From NCBI RefSeq assembly GCF_004299785.2, contig NZ_CP036246.2:496001-560000 (forward strand): 64,000 nucleotides of DNA. The letters are read 5' to 3'. Position numbers and translations under genes: made by a program. Below are positions 26,040 to 54,267 of this stretch, piece after piece. The stretch's first letter is position 1. The number at the start of each line of letters is the position of its first letter. The notes below the pieces were generated by a model that worked only from the letters and a program-made list of their open reading frames with translations, did not search any database and was not told where the DNA came from. The stretch is from Arcobacter porcinus (GTDB lineage Bacteria > Campylobacterota > Campylobacteria > Campylobacterales > Arcobacteraceae).

Positions 26040-26050
26040 ATATTTTAAAG

Positions 26051-27361
26051 GGGACCGTTCATAATTTTGTGTCAATTAGGTAAAATAAAAAATACCAAAG
26101 GACACAAAGATGAAAATAGAAATAGATGTAGAGCAATTTGCTAAAGATATAAAAGCTGGTAAAAGTATCGGTGGAGCAAATGGTGCTCTAGGCTCTTTAA
26201 TCAAACAATTAACAGAAGCTGCACTTGCAGCTGAGATAGATTCACATCTTGCTCAAGATTTGAGTAATAATAGAAAAAATGGATATAGCTCAAAGACTAT
26301 GAAAAGTGATCATGGAACATTCGAACTAGATGTTCCAAGAGATAGAAATGGTAACTTTGAACCAGAAATTGTAAAGAAAAATCAAACAACCATGACAAGT
26401 GAAATTGAAGATAAAATATTATCTTTGTTTGCACTAGGTAATAGCTATTCACAAATAGCAAAACATATAGAGGATTTTTATTGTGTAGGCTTCTCAAAAG
26501 CTACAATAAGTGCTGTAACAGATAAAATAATACCAATGCTTAATGATTGGAAAACAAGACCTCTAGAATCAGTATATCCATTTGTGTTTCTTGATGCAAT
26601 TCATTATAAAGTAAAAGAAGATGGGAAATATATCGCTAAAGCTTTTTATACAGTTTTAGGAGTTAGAGTTGATGGTAAAAAAGAGGTATTAGGACTTTAC
26701 TTGAATGAAAGTGAAGGAGCAAAGTTCTGGTTACAAGTTTTAACTGATTTACAAAATAGAGGTGTTAAAGATATTCTTATTGCTTCTGTTGATGGTTTAA
26801 AAGGATTTCCAGAAGCTATAAATTCTGTATTTCCAAATACCGAAGTACAACTTTGTATAGTTCATCAAATTAGGAATTCAATTAAATATGTTGGATCTAT
26901 AAACCAAAAACAATTTGCACAAGAGTTAAAATCTGTATATCAAGCTTTTACAAAAGATGAAGCATTATATGAACTTGATAAACTTGAAGAAAAATGGGGT
27001 AAAAAATACCCTATAGTATTTCAATCCTGGAGAAATAAATGGGAAAATTTAACAGTTTATTTCCAATATCCTGAAGATATAAGAAGAGTAATTTATACTA
27101 CAAATATTATTGAATCAGTACATAGACAATTTAGAACTTTAACTAAGACTAAGGGGGCTTTTCCAAATGATGATAGCTTACTAAAACTACTATTTATGGG
27201 TATAAAAAATGCTCAAGAAAAATGGACAATGCCAATTAGAAATTGGAGTTTAACTTTGTCTCAACTAGCCATCCACTTTGAAGGACGGCTTGATGATAGT
27301 TTAAATTTATGATAGAATTTTAGGACTTATCTGATGATGACACAGAATATTGAACACTACC
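26051..27361 (+). mobile_element. IS256-family insertion sequence, copy 1
   Basis: A 1311-bp element bounded by imperfect ~24-bp terminal inverted repeats (left GGGACCGTTCATAATTTTGT; right end in reverse GGTAGTGTTCAATATTCTGT, about 18 of 24 bases agree). It is flanked by a perfect 8-bp target duplication, TTTTAAAG, at 26043-26050 and 27362-27369. It carries one transposase gene. It appears identical to the copy at 52957-54267, in the same orientation. It separates the convergent HDOD and recO genes without breaking either; the right target duplicate contains the recO stop codon. Confidence 0.95.
26110..27312 (+). CDS. IS256-family (Mutator-type) DDE transposase
   Basis: A 400-residue transposase that looks intact. 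The DDE triad is visible as Asp162 (FLDAIHYK), Asp228 (SVDGLKGF) and Glu335 (TTNIIESVHRQ), with the C-x2-H element CIVH at 249-252 between the second Asp and the Glu. The N-terminal part (~1-140) has the helical DNA-binding region including GTFELDVPRDRNG. The deduced protein is identical to the second copy at 53016-54218. A good ribosome site, AAAGGACAC, precedes the start. Confidence 0.95.
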   Translation: MKIEIDVEQFAKDIKAGKSIGGANGALGSLIKQLTEAALAAEIDSHLAQDLSNNRKNGYSSKTMKSDHGTFELDVPRDRNGNFEPEIVKKNQTTMTSEIEDKILSLFALGNSYSQIAKHIEDFYCVGFSKATISAVTDKIIPMLNDWKTRPLESVYPFVFLDAIHYKVKEDGKYIAKAFYTVLGVRVDGKKEVLGLYLNESEGAKFWLQVLTDLQNRGVKDILIASVDGLKGFPEAINSVFPNTEVQLCIVHQIRNSIKYVGSINQKQFAQELKSVYQAFTKDEALYELDKLEEKWGKKYPIVFQSWRNKWENLTVYFQYPEDIRRVIYTTNIIESVHRQFRTLTKTKGAFPNDDSLLKLLFMGIKNAQEKWTMPIRNWSLTLSQLAIHFEGRLDDSLNL

Positions 27362-29621: not shown

Positions 29622-30683
29622 TTGCAAATTCAAAGATATTTAAATCACTCTAAAATTGATGTATATTTTAAACAGAGTAAAGATGATTTTGTTGTTCATG
29701 AAGTACCACTTTATGAGTTTAGTAAAGAGGGTGAGCATCTTATTATAAAATTAAGAAAGAAAGATTTAGCAACTTGGGATGCAATAGAAATCTTAGCTAA
29801 TTTCTTAAAATGTAGTCCAAGAGAGTTTGGATATGCAGGATTAAAAGATAAAAATGCAATGACAGTTCAACATATTTCAGTACATAGAAAATATGAAGAA
29901 GCTTTAAAAGAGTTTACTCATGAAAATATAAAAATTCTTGAAACAACATATCATAATAATAAGATAAAAATAGGGCACTTAAAAGGTAATAACTTTTTTA
30001 TTAGACTAAAAAGAGTTGGTCTTGTAGAGAAACAGAAAATAGAAGAAGCTTTAGGAAAAATTGCTACTTTTGGAATGCCAAATTATTTTGGTTTTCAAAG
30101 ATTTGGAATTGATGGTGAAAACTATAAAAAAGGTAAAGCAATAGTTGAAGGAGAGTTAAAAGAGAGAAATAGAAATCTAAAACAGATGTTTATAAACTCT
30201 TATCAATCATATCTTTTTAATTTATGGTTATCAAAAAGAATAGAGATTTCAAAACTTATTGACTCTTTTGAAGCAAAAGAGATTTATGAAAAATTAAATT
30301 TACCACTTGAAGAAGTAAAAAGAGCAAAAAAACAGCCACACCCTTTTAAGATATTTACAGGAGATTTATTAAGTCATTATCCATTTGGAAGAATTTTTAT
30401 TATTGATGATTTAGAAGTTGAGAGTCAAAAGTTTCTTGATAAAGATAGAGTACCAACAGGTCTTTTATCTGGAAAAAGAGTTAAAAAAAGTGAGGCTTTG
30501 GCACAAGAGATTGAAAAAGATTTTGACATAGAAATGAGTGAAGATGGTGCAAGAAGATTCGCATTTATTTTTCCTGAAAATATTGAGAGTAACTATAAAG
30601 AAGATAAAAATCATATGGAACTTAGTTTCTATCTTCCAAAAGGTTCTTATGCAACAGAGCTCATAGCTGAGATTTTACACTAG
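29622..30683 (+). CDS. truD: tRNA pseudouridine(13) synthase TruD
   Basis: TruD makes pseudouridine 13 in tRNA-Glu. Start is TTG at 29622, with AAGGAAAA just before. Motifs seen are KDDFVVHEVPLYEFS, FGYAGLKDKNAMTVQHIS (the catalytic Asp is in GLKDK), KIGHLKGNNFFIRLK, PNYFGFQRFG and NSYQSYLFNLWL. Length (353 residues) is typical. It forms a two-gene unit with thiL. Confidence 0.95.
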   Translation: MQIQRYLNHSKIDVYFKQSKDDFVVHEVPLYEFSKEGEHLIIKLRKKDLATWDAIEILANFLKCSPREFGYAGLKDKNAMTVQHISVHRKYEEALKEFTHENIKILETTYHNNKIKIGHLKGNNFFIRLKRVGLVEKQKIEEALGKIATFGMPNYFGFQRFGIDGENYKKGKAIVEGELKERNRNLKQMFINSYQSYLFNLWLSKRIEISKLIDSFEAKEIYEKLNLPLEEVKRAKKQPHPFKIFTGDLLSHYPFGRIFIIDDLEVESQKFLDKDRVPTGLLSGKRVKKSEALAQEIEKDFDIEMSEDGARRFAFIFPENIESNYKEDKNHMELSFYLPKGSYATELIAEILH

Positions 30684-30704: not shown

Positions 30705-30734
30705 ATCAATTCTTACAATATACAAGGAAATAAT

Positions 30735-31097
30735 ATGAGATATGAAGAGCTTATTACAGAACTTTGTGAAGTTATAAAAGAGACTGAAAATGATGCACAA
30801 GGTATATTTGATAATAGTGAAGAGATGGAACAAATATTAGAAAGTATGCATCTTCCAAGAAGAAAAAAAGAGAAACTTTTAAAATCAATTTCAAATATTT
30901 ATGGTTTTTTACAAAGGCAAGATTTACATAGACAAAAGATTGAGAGGGTTGTAAATTTTGTTTGTGATAAAAATGATATTGATAAAACACAATATAATTT
31001 AGCTTCAAGTGCAAAAAATATAAGCTATACTTCATGCTGTAATGATAATTTGAGTTCAGAGGAATTAGAAGAACTTATAAAAAGTATGCAAGGTTAA
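30735..31097 (+). CDS. Small CheZ-like protein (putative CheY-P phosphatase)
   Basis: A 120-residue helical protein. Residues 62-71 read QDLHRQKIER, matching the CheZ active site QDLTGQVIKR of E. coli, with Asp63 and Gln67 at the same spacing as the catalytic Asp143 and Gln147. The C-terminal end SSEELEELIKSMQG resembles the CheZ tail that grips CheY, joined by a flexible segment (~80-105). At 120 residues it is about half the E. coli length. The convergent neighbour is a chemoreceptor gene, which fits a chemotaxis role. Assignment rests on the motif and is not proven. ACAAGGAAAT precedes the start. Confidence 0.55.
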   Translation: MRYEELITELCEVIKETENDAQGIFDNSEEMEQILESMHLPRRKKEKLLKSISNIYGFLQRQDLHRQKIERVVNFVCDKNDIDKTQYNLASSAKNISYTSCCNDNLSSEELEELIKSMQG

Positions 31098-31128: not shown

Positions 31129-31166
31129 TAAAAAGTATAGATAGAATTCTATCTATACTTTTTTTA
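31129..31166. terminator. Bidirectional terminator between the CheZ-like and chemoreceptor genes
   Basis: A perfect 34-base palindrome, AAAAAGTATAGATAGAA and its complement, centred at 31146/31147, with A and T tracts on its two flanks. It looks like a rho-independent terminator for both convergent genes; the chemoreceptor stop codon lies at its edge (31164-31166). Confidence 0.85.
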
Positions 31167-33335
31167 TGATTTTATTTCATCAATCTTTTTAAAGAACTCT
31201 AAAGTAGTTTTCTCTACAATATTTGCTTTTATATTTAATTGTTCAGCTTTATCTTTATTTGAGTTTGAATCAGCTAAATTTTGTAGATTTTTATTTAAAT
31301 CAGAGTCAATTCTTTTAATATCTTCTATTAGCTCAGTATCAATTACTTTAGAAGATATTTCATTACTATTTAGCCACTCTAAAATTGTGCTAGAGTTATC
31401 TACTTTGAATTTCTTATAATTACCAAGTTGAGAATAAACAGCATCTTTCTTCTTAATAATATCAGTTTTTAATAAAGCTGTATCATAAACTAAATCAACA
31501 TCACTAACCTTGTTTAAACTATCTTCTATAAAAGTAGTTCTTGAAGCAGCAGTTACAAGATAACTAGATGTTGCTGCAATAGAAGATGCCATAACAGATA
31601 TTTGATCAGCTACTTGAGCATTTTTTTGTGTAGAAATATCTAAAGTTCCAATTACATCATTTATTTGTAATATTCCAGTCTCTTGCTCTTTTGAAGCTGC
31701 TGCCACATTCTCTATTGTAATAAGAGTATTTGATATATTATTATTTAATTCTGAATAACCTTCAATCATATTATTAGCAATATTTTTACCTTCATTTGCT
31801 TTAATACTTGCTCTTTCAACAATGTCTTTAATCTCTCTTGCAGCTTCTGCACTTCTTGCTGCAAGATTTCTTACTTCAGCAGCAACAACAGCAAATCCTT
31901 TTCCAGCTTCTCCAGCAGTTGCAGCTTCAACAGCTGCATTTAAGCTTAGAATATTTGTTTGGAATGCTATTTGGTCAATTACTTCAATTGCTTCATTTAT
32001 AGAGTTTACTTGAGAATTAATTGCATCCATAGATTTTGCTGTCTCTTCTGCTAGAGTTTGACCTTTTTTTGCAGAGTTATTTAAATCTTGAGTAAGTTTT
32101 GACATCTCAATAGTTGATTGAGTATTAGCTTGAATTGTTGCAGTAATTTCATCTAAAGCAGCAGCTGTCTCTTCTAAAGATGCAGCTTGTTGACTAGAAG
32201 AGTTTTTCAAGCTTAAAGAAGTTTCTGAAAGAGTTTGTGTACTATCTTTTAATGAGTTACCAGTATTCATAACAATAGCTAACAATTCAGAAGTATTGTT
32301 TCCTACAAGATTTATACCATTTGTAAGAGAAGCTAAATTTCCATAAATATTTTGGTCTTTTAAAATAAAGTCATATTTTGATTCCGCATAGTGTCTTAAT
32401 GCTTCATTAATTTTATCAAGAGTCTCTTTTGTTCTTTCAATCATCTGATTTAATTTATTTTTTAAATCTTCAACATGTGGATTTGCAGCTGTATTATTTA
32501 CTCTATATACGAAGAATCCATTTGCAGTCTTTTCTATTACATCATTTGCTTCTTCAATAACTTTTTCATCTTGCTCTAGACCTTTTCTTACTTTTTCCAT
32601 ATAAGAGTTGAATAGGTGTGCAACTTCTCCTATTTCATCTTCTGTTTTTACTTTTAAAGAGATATTTGTATCGTTTGAGTGAAGTAAATCATCAAAACCT
32701 GACTTAAGATCTTCAATTGGACTTGTAGCTTTTCTAACAATGAAGAAGATTAAAATAATAGTAAATAATCCTAAAATAGTTGAAGATAGAGAAATTTCTT
32801 TTAAAAGAGATTTTATTTTTTTATCAGTTTCATCTAAAGAGAAAGTTAAATCCATTACACCAATAACATCTCCAACAGCTTGATTAGGGTGACATGCCAT
32901 ACATTCATTTGTAGCAATCATTGGTTTAATCATTCTAATTGTATGCCCATTTTCATCATTTTTTTGAATGATTTGATTCTCTTTTGTAGCAAAACTATCT
33001 AAAATTTGTGGATCTTTTGTAAAAGGTGTATCTAAACCATAAAGTTCAATAAGCTCTTTACTCTTTGCAACAGTTAATTGCTTAACTCCTTTTATATCTC
33101 TAGCATCCTCTTCAGCTTTTGCTATTAAATCTCTATCTCCCGTATTCATTGTATTTCTTAAAGTTTGAAATATGGATGCATTTAGCATTGATAGATTATC
33201 TCTAGCATTTGCTATTGAATCTTCTGTCACCTTTGTTGTCGTAGAATAGACAATAAAAGAACTACTTATAAACATAAGAATAAACAGAGCAAAAATGATT
33301 TTATTGCTAACTTTTTTTGTGATAAATTTAAGCAT
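31164..33335 (-). CDS. Methyl-accepting chemotaxis protein with periplasmic CxxCH haem motif
   Basis: A 723-residue chemoreceptor. Transmembrane helix 1 is at ~12-32 and helix 2 at ~183-201. The periplasmic domain between them holds CMACH at residues 145-149 ([23 protein letters not shown]), the covalent haem c attachment motif, as in haem-PAS/DUF3365-like sensors. A HAMP domain (~202-255) and a long helical cytoplasmic domain follow, with the hairpin tip [19 protein letters not shown] and [17 protein letters not shown]. The C-terminal ~120 residues resemble a CZB domain in layout but lack clear zinc-binding His/Cys. It probably senses redox state or a small gas; the signal is inferred. Confidence 0.88.
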
Positions 33336-50321: not shown

Positions 50322-51551
50322 TTATGACTTAGAAAATACACGAGATGGATCATATGGAGTGTTGTATCTAAATATAGAGTAAATTATGGTTGCAAGTTTT
50401 CTAGCAACAGCAATAATTCCCTCCTGTTTGGATTTACCTTGAGACTTTTTTGTATCATAATATTGTTTTAGTTCTTTGTTGTGTAATAAACAACTAACAC
50501 TTGCCATATATAAAGCATGTTTAGCTAAAGAAGAACCTCTTTTGCTTAAATGACCTGTAGATTTGGAATTACCTGAGCTATTTTCTGTTGGAAATAATCC
50601 AAGATAACCAATAAATTTAATAGGTGTTTTAAATCTTGATAGATCTCCACATTCACTAATAACTGCAGCAATAGTTTTAGATGAAACTCCAGGAATAGTT
50701 TTTAAGTTCTCAATCAATGAATTAGTTGGAACATCTTTTTCCTCTTTAATACCATTTTTTTCAAGAAGTGCTAATATCTCTTCTTCTAATATAGATAGTT
50801 CTTCTTGATATATTTTAAGAAGTCTAATAGAACTTTTAATAGCAATAGCTCTTGCATCTTTGGCTTTACCTGAATAAATAGAGTTTTTTGCTAACTCTAA
50901 AACCTCTATAGCCTTTTGGTTATTAAAACTATTTCCTTGAATATGTCTAAAAATTTTAAGTATCCTGTCAACACTACTATGTTTATAGTGGTGTGCAGTT
51001 GGATATTTATCTAAAAGTGCAAGCCCTGTGATGCTAAATATATCAATAAAATTTTCAAGTTCTGGAAATGTAACTGTTACTTGAGTAAGTATTCTCTTCT
51101 TTACTTCTTTCATGTCTGATTGTATAGAAGCACGATTACGATATAAAGTTCTTAAACTCTGATATTCGTCATCAGTTACATAACCTGAACTATATTTACC
51201 ATCTTTTAAAAATAAAGCTATGATCCAAGAATCTATGTTGTCGTTTTTTACTTTCTTCATTGTGTGTTGTTCTCTATATCTAGTTGTTTGAAATGGATTT
51301 AATAGTTTAACATTAAACCCATGAGAATTTAAAAACTCCCAAAGGTTTTCACCATAAATACCAGTTGCTTCAAGACCAATTATAAAATCATTTGTATTTG
51401 ATGAAATAGTTTCAAGTTTAGTAATAAACTTTGAAAATCCATCAATACAGTTTGTAACTCTTATAGGTTTTTGTGTAACTTTTACTTCATTCTCATCAAT
51501 GATAGTAACAACATGAAAGCTTTTAGCAATATCAATTCCAACATAATACAT
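50322..51551 (-). CDS. IS110-family DEDD transposase
   Basis: A 409-residue transposase that looks intact. N-terminal RuvC-like DEDD domain: Asp6 in YVGIDIAK, Glu61 in GLEATGIYGENL, and Asp104/Asp107 in VKNDNIDSW. A helical linker follows (~150-290). The C-terminal transposase-20 domain has LKTIPGVSSKTIAAVISECGD and the SKRGSSLAKHALY region (~336-348), with the candidate catalytic serine. IS110 enzymes use an RNA guide and a RuvC/serine composite site. A GAGG ribosome site lies ~8 bases before the ATG. Confidence 0.94.
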   Translation of the reverse strand: MYYVGIDIAKSFHVVTIIDENEVKVTQKPIRVTNCIDGFSKFITKLETISSNTNDFIIGLEATGIYGENLWEFLNSHGFNVKLLNPFQTTRYREQHTMKKVKNDNIDSWIIALFLKDGKYSSGYVTDDEYQSLRTLYRNRASIQSDMKEVKKRILTQVTVTFPELENFIDIFSITGLALLDKYPTAHHYKHSSVDRILKIFRHIQGNSFNNQKAIEVLELAKNSIYSGKAKDARAIAIKSSIRLLKIYQEELSILEEEILALLEKNGIKEEKDVPTNSLIENLKTIPGVSSKTIAAVISECGDLSRFKTPIKFIGYLGLFPTENSSGNSKSTGHLSKRGSSLAKHALYMASVSCLLHNKELKQYYDTKKSQGKSKQEGIIAVARKLATIIYSIFRYNTPYDPSRVFSKS

Positions 51552-51889: not shown

Positions 51890-52937
51890 ATGAATAGATT
51901 AATTAAAAGAGTATTTTTACTGTTAGTTTTTTTTCTAGCTACAAGTTTAGCTTTTGCTTGTACAAGAGTTGTATATCACGGTGAAAATGAGATAATGACT
52001 GCAAGATCTATGGATTGGAAAAGTGATATTGGAACAAATCTTTGGATATTTCCAAGTAATATAAAAAGAGATGGAAAAGCTGGAACAAAATCAATAAAAT
52101 GGACTTCAAAATATGGAAGTGTTGTTGCAACAGGATATGATATTTCAACAACAGATGGAGTAAATGAAAAAGGTTTAATGGCAAATTTACTTTGGCTTGT
52201 TGAATCAGAATATCCAAAAATAGAAAAGAGTAATAAAGCAACATTAAGCATATCTTTATGGGCACAATATGTTTTAGATAATTTTGCAACAGTAGAAGAG
52301 ACTGTAAAAGCTTTGAAGAAAGAGCCTTTTGTTGTAGTTACAGATCAGGTTCCAGGAGAAAAAAGATTAGCAACTTTACATCTATCTATATCGGATAAAA
52401 AAGGTGATAGTGCAATTATTGAGTATATAGATGGAAAACAGCTAATTCATCATAATATAAAATATCAAGTTATGACAAACTCTCCAACATTTGATAAACA
52501 ATTAGCTCTTAATACATATTGGCAACAAATTGGTGGAACAACAATGCTTCCAGGGACAAATAGAGCTTCAGATCGTTTTGCAAGAGCATCATTTTATATA
52601 AATGCAATTCCTAAAGATTCAAATAAACAGCATACTTTGGCAAGTATTTTTAGTGTGATTAGAAATGTATCTGTCCCCTTTTGGATTAAACACAGAAGAG
52701 GAACCAAATATATCTTCAACAAGATGGAGAACAGTTTTCGACCATAAAAGAGGATTGTACTTTTTTGAATCAGCAGTCTCTCCAAATATATTTTGGGTAG
52801 ATATTGAAGCGATTGATTTCAAAAAAACAGATATAAGAAAATTAGATTTGGGTGAAAACCAAGAGAATATATTCTCAGGAGATGTAACTTCTCACTTTAA
52901 ACAAGAGAAAGCATTTGAGTTTTTAGGAGCAAAATAG
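51890..52937 (+). pseudogene. Choloylglycine hydrolase/penicillin V acylase family gene, frameshifted
   Basis: The first frame (51890-52747) encodes a secreted Ntn-hydrolase: signal peptide ~1-23, then the nucleophile Cys24 (FACTRVVYHGENEIMTA), with Arg39 and Asp42 in ARSMDW and DGVNEKGLMANLLWL. At CCCCTTTT (52675-52682) the frame shifts; the matching C-terminal part (FGLNTEEEPNISSTRWRTVF to the end) continues in the next frame to 52937. Removing one base would restore a protein of about 349 residues. It could be a true mutation, slippage in a homopolymer, or a sequence error. It is flanked by two insertion sequences. Confidence 0.8.
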
Positions 52938-52956
52938 TTTTTTCTAGAGATAAAGA

Positions 52957-54267
52957 GGGACCGTTCATAATTTTGTGTCAATTAGGTAAAATAAAAAATA
53001 CCAAAGGACACAAAGATGAAAATAGAAATAGATGTAGAGCAATTTGCTAAAGATATAAAAGCTGGTAAAAGTATCGGTGGAGCAAATGGTGCTCTAGGCT
53101 CTTTAATCAAACAATTAACAGAAGCTGCACTTGCAGCTGAGATAGATTCACATCTTGCTCAAGATTTGAGTAATAATAGAAAAAATGGATATAGCTCAAA
53201 GACTATGAAAAGTGATCATGGAACATTCGAACTAGATGTTCCAAGAGATAGAAATGGTAACTTTGAACCAGAAATTGTAAAGAAAAATCAAACAACCATG
53301 ACAAGTGAAATTGAAGATAAAATATTATCTTTGTTTGCACTAGGTAATAGCTATTCACAAATAGCAAAACATATAGAGGATTTTTATTGTGTAGGCTTCT
53401 CAAAAGCTACAATAAGTGCTGTAACAGATAAAATAATACCAATGCTTAATGATTGGAAAACAAGACCTCTAGAATCAGTATATCCATTTGTGTTTCTTGA
53501 TGCAATTCATTATAAAGTAAAAGAAGATGGGAAATATATCGCTAAAGCTTTTTATACAGTTTTAGGAGTTAGAGTTGATGGTAAAAAAGAGGTATTAGGA
53601 CTTTACTTGAATGAAAGTGAAGGAGCAAAGTTCTGGTTACAAGTTTTAACTGATTTACAAAATAGAGGTGTTAAAGATATTCTTATTGCTTCTGTTGATG
53701 GTTTAAAAGGATTTCCAGAAGCTATAAATTCTGTATTTCCAAATACCGAAGTACAACTTTGTATAGTTCATCAAATTAGGAATTCAATTAAATATGTTGG
53801 ATCTATAAACCAAAAACAATTTGCACAAGAGTTAAAATCTGTATATCAAGCTTTTACAAAAGATGAAGCATTATATGAACTTGATAAACTTGAAGAAAAA
53901 TGGGGTAAAAAATACCCTATAGTATTTCAATCCTGGAGAAATAAATGGGAAAATTTAACAGTTTATTTCCAATATCCTGAAGATATAAGAAGAGTAATTT
54001 ATACTACAAATATTATTGAATCAGTACATAGACAATTTAGAACTTTAACTAAGACTAAGGGGGCTTTTCCAAATGATGATAGCTTACTAAAACTACTATT
54101 TATGGGTATAAAAAATGCTCAAGAAAAATGGACAATGCCAATTAGAAATTGGAGTTTAACTTTGTCTCAACTAGCCATCCACTTTGAAGGACGGCTTGAT
54201 GATAGTTTAAATTTATGATAGAATTTTAGGACTTATCTGATGATGACACAGAATATTGAACACTACC
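52957..54267 (+). mobile_element. IS256-family insertion sequence, copy 2
   Basis: 1311 bp, apparently identical to 26051-27361 and in the same orientation. It has the same imperfect terminal inverted repeats and a perfect 8-bp target duplication, GATAAAGA, at 52949-52956 and 54268-54275. It separates the hydrolase remnant from the convergent argC gene. With one target copy removed, the flanks join as TAGAGATAAA...TTTATCTCTA, a 10-bp hairpin, so the element sits inside a former terminator-like structure. Confidence 0.95.
53016..54218 (+). CDS. IS256-family (Mutator-type) DDE transposase, second copy
   Basis: Deduced protein identical over 400 residues to the transposase at 26110-27312, with Asp162, Asp228 and Glu335 as the DDE triad. 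Both copies look intact, so both could be active. The start codon follows AAAGGACAC inside the element. Confidence 0.95.
   Translation: MKIEIDVEQFAKDIKAGKSIGGANGALGSLIKQLTEAALAAEIDSHLAQDLSNNRKNGYSSKTMKSDHGTFELDVPRDRNGNFEPEIVKKNQTTMTSEIEDKILSLFALGNSYSQIAKHIEDFYCVGFSKATISAVTDKIIPMLNDWKTRPLESVYPFVFLDAIHYKVKEDGKYIAKAFYTVLGVRVDGKKEVLGLYLNESEGAKFWLQVLTDLQNRGVKDILIASVDGLKGFPEAINSVFPNTEVQLCIVHQIRNSIKYVGSINQKQFAQELKSVYQAFTKDEALYELDKLEEKWGKKYPIVFQSWRNKWENLTVYFQYPEDIRRVIYTTNIIESVHRQFRTLTKTKGAFPNDDSLLKLLFMGIKNAQEKWTMPIRNWSLTLSQLAIHFEGRLDDSLNL

Follow-up and report, generated by a model that had tools for sequence, protein, structure and literature searches.

A compact putative CheY-P phosphatase of the CheZ family, probably receptor-linked, in Arcobacteraceae

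The window analyzed here is a 64,000-nucleotide stretch of the Arcobacter porcinus genome (NZ_CP036246.2, positions 496,001 to 560,000), which is assembled as one 2.02-Mb contig. Near the middle of the window lies a short gene, here called compact cheZ, that starts with ATG and encodes a protein whose closest named relatives are found in Arcobacter cryaerophilus and Aliarcobacter vitoriensis (Table 1). A chemoreceptor gene does adjoin it, as the first-pass annotation had noticed; the two genes are convergent, 66 bp apart, and compact cheZ lies outside the operon of the receptor. The stem-loop between them is likely a terminator, possibly a bidirectional one. Elsewhere in the window, two 1.3-kb insertion elements (26046-27361 and 52951-54267) are 99.9% identical and each carries the same 400-aa transposase gene; in the relative G143, the genes that flank the first element are adjacent and the element is absent. 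Beside the second element, a choloylglycine-hydrolase-like gene (named by eye; 51890-52937) is apparently split into two overlapping frames, and a further ORF at 50322-51551 looks like an IS110-like transposase.

Table 1. Features of the compact cheZ locus (coordinates are those of the window)
Feature	Position	Strand	Basis
truD, conserved neighbor upstream of compact cheZ (context only)	29622..30683	+	NCBIfam TruD 3e-161; synteny
Shine-Dalgarno-like AAGGAA, five bases 5′ of the compact cheZ ATG	30724..30729	+	sequence itself
Compact cheZ gene	30735..31097	+	120-aa ORF; long-CheZ model E=1e-10; orthologs in 90/104 family genomes
Helix A of hairpin, residues 3-37, aligns with the V-T-K-[DE]-S-E...IFD helix of long CheZ	30741..30845	+	AlphaFold2, pLDDT about 81-92
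Helix B of hairpin, residues 42-79, carries the active site	30858..30971	+	AlphaFold2 model
DLHRQ, residues 63-67, CheZ catalytic Asp and Gln by alignment	30921..30935	+	
C-terminal helix, residues 108-119, after the linker; CheY-binding tail by homology	31056..31091	+	model; alignment with E. coli 200-214 region
Stem-loop with T-run between the convergent compact cheZ and receptor genes	31130..31163	.	15-bp stem; found 1 versus 0.2 expected
Chemoreceptor gene, 723 aa: periplasmic sensor, HAMP, MCP signaling domain	31164..33335	-	Pfam MCPsignal 5e-34, HAMP 1.4e-5
CxxCH heme-c motif, receptor sensor domain, residues 145-149	32889..32903	-	26/26 full-length orthologs

Comparison with long CheZ proteins showed that the compact protein is a CheZ homolog. 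When a model was trained on 19 long CheZ sequences from Campylobacterota families of the same order other than Arcobacteraceae, it detected the compact protein by hmmsearch and gave 0 matches among 2000 shuffled sequences and 154 other ORFs of the window. Profile-profile alignment of the compact and long forms (hhalign) gave a probability of 99.3% over 110 columns, with a large gap midway along the hairpin. The CheZ-like spacing of Asp and Gln, one of the initial clues from the sequence, is borne out by this alignment: D63 and Q67 in QRQDLHRQKIERVV fall in the same columns as D143 and Q147 of E. coli CheZ (AQDFQDLTGQVIKRMM). Their counterparts are invariant in 62 of 62 compact and 37 of 37 long CheZ rows and are also present in E. 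coli CheZ; D63, R66, Q67, and E70 are all four invariant across the 62 compact and 37 long rows. Likewise, the C-terminus, proposed earlier to resemble a CheY-binding tail, reads NLSSEELEELIKSM and aligns with the CheZ tail of E. coli (SQDQVDDLLDSLGF) and of Campylobacterota (VSNDDIEALIASLG).

The curated family models were less informative. Nothing in Pfam scored above cut-off for the compact protein and the CheZ model PF04344 did not match it, while the NCBIfam CheZ model NF041271 matched at 1.3e-4, with 21.5 bits against a curated cut-off of 350. This reflects a limit of the models, because the long CheZ of the same genome also falls short, with no PF04344 match and 118.8 of 350 bits for NF041271. 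PF04344 is therefore of no use as a test for CheZ in this lineage. Weak Pfam matches to YtzH, mRNA_stabil, and other models were all under their curated cut-offs and had no backing from alignments. A phage origin was also rejected, there being no PHROGs match.

An AlphaFold2 monomer model made from 6 aligned sequences (mean pLDDT, 78) predicted the arrangement typical of CheZ, a helical hairpin followed by a flexible linker (residues 91 to 105, disordered) and a C-terminal helix; the second helix of the hairpin bears the catalytic Asp and, four residues on, the Gln. The protein lacks the acidic N-terminal region and retains both the linker and the C-terminal helix. The main departure is in the length of the hairpin. 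From E18 to the catalytic Asp there are 90 residues in 36 of the 37 long CheZs but 45 in the 120-aa protein; all compact rows have 37 to 54, and 42 of the 55 shortest have exactly 45. Judged from these alignments, the halved hairpin is what makes compact CheZ a variant. A full-length hairpin is typical of the CheZ family and is not known as a requirement for catalysis. A Foldseek search of the model against the PDB gave no match below 1e-3, which is unsurprising because the model is a lone two-helix hairpin, yet it lends the assignment no support. In E. coli CheZ, the bundle comprises residues 35 to 168, of which residues about 70 to 133, around the hairpin tip, are enough for polar localization (PMC7750401). 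The part missing from compact CheZ would correspond to this anchoring end and not to the catalytic middle, and the compact form probably has no E. coli-type polar anchor because the distal hairpin containing that region is absent.

A profile of six compact CheZ orthologs was used to survey 104 Arcobacteraceae genomes, and several patterns were apparent. First, compact CheZ was found in 90 of the 104, most of which also show a long CheZ, and among the genomes sampled it was restricted to Arcobacteraceae, where it forms one group. This agrees with the earlier suggestion of a type distinct for the lineage. Second, it tracks CheA: 87 genomes have both, 9 have neither, 5 have CheA only, and 3 have compact CheZ only (Fisher p 1e-7, not a strict probability because the genomes are related). 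Third, it is the second CheZ of the genome and not the sole one, as the flagellar locus encodes an ordinary 278-aa CheZ, alongside a CheY that is called CheYz under the nomenclature of PMC9321776. Fourth, in the tree a 100/99 branch separates every compact form from all the long CheZs of the order and the family. Compact CheZ is an ancient paralog that descends from Campylobacterota CheZ, its hairpin approximately halved and the acidic N-terminal region lost in this branch. Finally, some genera have intermediates of 152 to 171 aa in which the N-terminal MTQEELDALM is still present and the hairpin is already short, which suggests, from sequence comparison, that the hairpin was shortened a single time and the N-terminus was lost on more than one occasion.

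Two further observations concern the ends of these proteins. The N-terminal MTQEELDALM of Campylobacterota CheZ (L036, L010, L026, and other long or intermediate forms) resembles both the C-terminal helix of the same proteins and the CheY-binding motif of FliM/FliN; the shortest compact forms lack it. In G053, which belongs to another family of the order, two cheZ genes encoding 178 and 235 aa lie in tandem (L160:4120-5341). The 178-aa copy was considered as a shortened CheZ outside Arcobacteraceae and rejected, since it keeps the long hairpin and only its N-terminus is gone.

The dN/dS of compact cheZ between close relatives is 0.02 to 0.25, and purifying selection maintains both the Asp/Gln catalytic pair of the second helix and the CheY-binding-type C-terminal helix. 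A decaying, truncated cheZ duplicate or a chance ORF might also give a short protein that scores under curated cut-offs, but this explanation has practically no chance of being correct, as it is refuted by the dN/dS values, the conservation across the family, and the shuffle and decoy controls. The 120-residue reading frame picked out in the first-pass annotation is therefore a real gene, and its product is, as described there, about half the size of E. coli CheZ (120 versus 214 aa, or 56%).

The neighboring receptor provides a possible context for its function. Its sensor domain matches the Tll0287 and Mcp40H-20 models weakly; this sensor family is described as heme-c Cache domains whose signaling members behave as nitric-oxide sensors (PMC12889525, preprint). 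From its sequence, the receptor is a heme-c receptor and may sense nitric oxide. The gene order thiL-truD-compact cheZ-MCP-ruvA-ddl is common to most genera, and there an ortholog of the receptor stands beside compact cheZ. Three genomes of two divergent genera (G191, G212, and G213) have a CheY-receptor-compact cheZ cluster, all on a single strand, whose genes touch, overlap, or stand close together. The CheY of this cluster has 45 to 48% identity to CheYm of the window genome, compared to 25 to 30% for CheYz and the F7-CheY. In another genus (G043, G186, G187, and G190), the best receptor match (42 to 46%) is followed by a CheYm-type CheY. Together, the three-gene clusters and the receptor-CheYm pairs make an association of receptor, CheY, and phosphatase plausible. 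As far as gene order can indicate, compact CheZ most likely belongs with one particular chemoreceptor and one CheY, the link to CheY coming mainly from the three genomes of two genera. In the window genome itself, the CheYm gene directly adjoins the gene of a chemoreceptor that looks soluble and has a zinc-binding CZB domain (L111:3377-5160).

A different function would follow if compact CheZ were an active phosphatase for the motor CheY (CheYz) or the F7-operon CheY, that is, a diffusible backup to long CheZ with no specificity for a receptor. Such a role would suit the detection of three stand-alone CheYs in the genome and no more, the lack of a CheY gene beside compact cheZ in most genera, and the relationship of compact CheZ to F3-type CheZ, whose partner is the F3 CheY/CheYz (tree; PMC9321776). 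However, in the two genera where a CheY adjoins the receptor and compact cheZ, this CheY is of the CheYm type, and CheYz already has a phosphatase in the long CheZ encoded beside it. We regard a backup function as possible but rather unlikely.

The proposal that the protein is a compact CheY-P phosphatase is the best-supported reading, with the activity predicted from CheZ homology, the invariant DxxxQ, the C-terminal helix, and the predicted hairpin. We hold with reasonable, though not full, confidence that compact CheZ is an accessory, receptor-linked putative CheY-P phosphatase of Arcobacteraceae without the distal hairpin, for which we infer catalysis, dimerization, and substrate. By analogy with CheZ biochemistry, two compact hairpins would come together as a short four-helix bundle, phosphorylated CheY would be captured by the C-terminal helix, and D63 and Q67 would then enter the CheY active site and position a water molecule, with removal of the phosphate. 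The polar anchor would probably not be used, as the E. coli localization region is missing with the distal hairpin. Gene order suggests that compact CheZ may act for a CheYm-type CheY and the adjoining heme-c receptor, and that the motor-binding CheYz would be served by the long CheZ of the flagellar locus. In H. pylori CheZ, D189, Q193, and the C-terminus are reported to be needed and the N-terminal region to be dispensable (PMC11237671), which fits the loss of the N-terminus from compact CheZ. Alternatively, the protein could bind CheY-P without hydrolyzing it, acting as an adaptor, a sink, or a regulator of long CheZ, with DxxxQ kept for binding alone. The bundle is of half length, the placement of CheY on it is a supposition, and compact CheZ could in principle pair with long CheZ; nevertheless, both catalytic residues are invariant in 62 of 62 very divergent sequences while neighboring positions vary, and we consider a pure binding role improbable.

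Known CheY-P phosphatases differ from this predicted enzyme in several respects. The remote CheZ of Campylobacterota (H. pylori CheZ, F3 class; NF041271) is homologous in the hairpin, the active-site helix, the SSAxHI linker, and the C-terminal helix and has the same DxxxQ. Compared to it, the compact form has 45 rather than 90 residues from E18 to the catalytic Asp, has neither the N-terminal acidic region nor MTQEELDALM, and is a second genomic copy with other gene neighbors. E. coli CheZ (PDB 1KMI, PF04344) shares the Asp/Gln pair and the order of hairpin, flexible linker, and C-terminal helix, whereas the compact form, 120 versus 214 aa, has no distal hairpin or N-terminal helix and is missed by PF04344. 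A shortened bundle is also found in Azorhizobium caulinodans CheZ, with about 25 residues less than in E. coli (PMC7750401), but that protein, at 236 aa, has a long N-terminal helix and is not a conserved second copy. CheC and CheX also dephosphorylate CheY-P, but with a fold and motif unrelated to CheZ; CheC was not detected in this genome, and CheX gave only a marginal match below the cut-off. The main text of the main comparative study names one CheZ in Arcobacter, at the flagellar locus (PMC9321776), and the literature searched contained no description of a short or second CheZ matching this protein.

A broader and more tentative picture, which we put forward as a possibility of modest likelihood, is that Arcobacteraceae have a receptor-dedicated module, consisting of a heme-c (possibly nitric-oxide-sensing) receptor, a CheYm-type CheY, and a half-length CheZ, beside the motor pathway of CheYz and long CheZ; the half-length bundle would then be the smallest working CheZ, freed from polar anchoring. 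Compact CheZ is the smallest natural CheZ type in this survey and indicates the portions of the bundle that CheY-P hydrolysis may not need. To the hybrid chemotaxis system of Arcobacteraceae it adds a conserved component that appears not to have been described, and, by linking one CheY type with one receptor and one phosphatase, it offers a lead on the role of the extra CheYs of the family.
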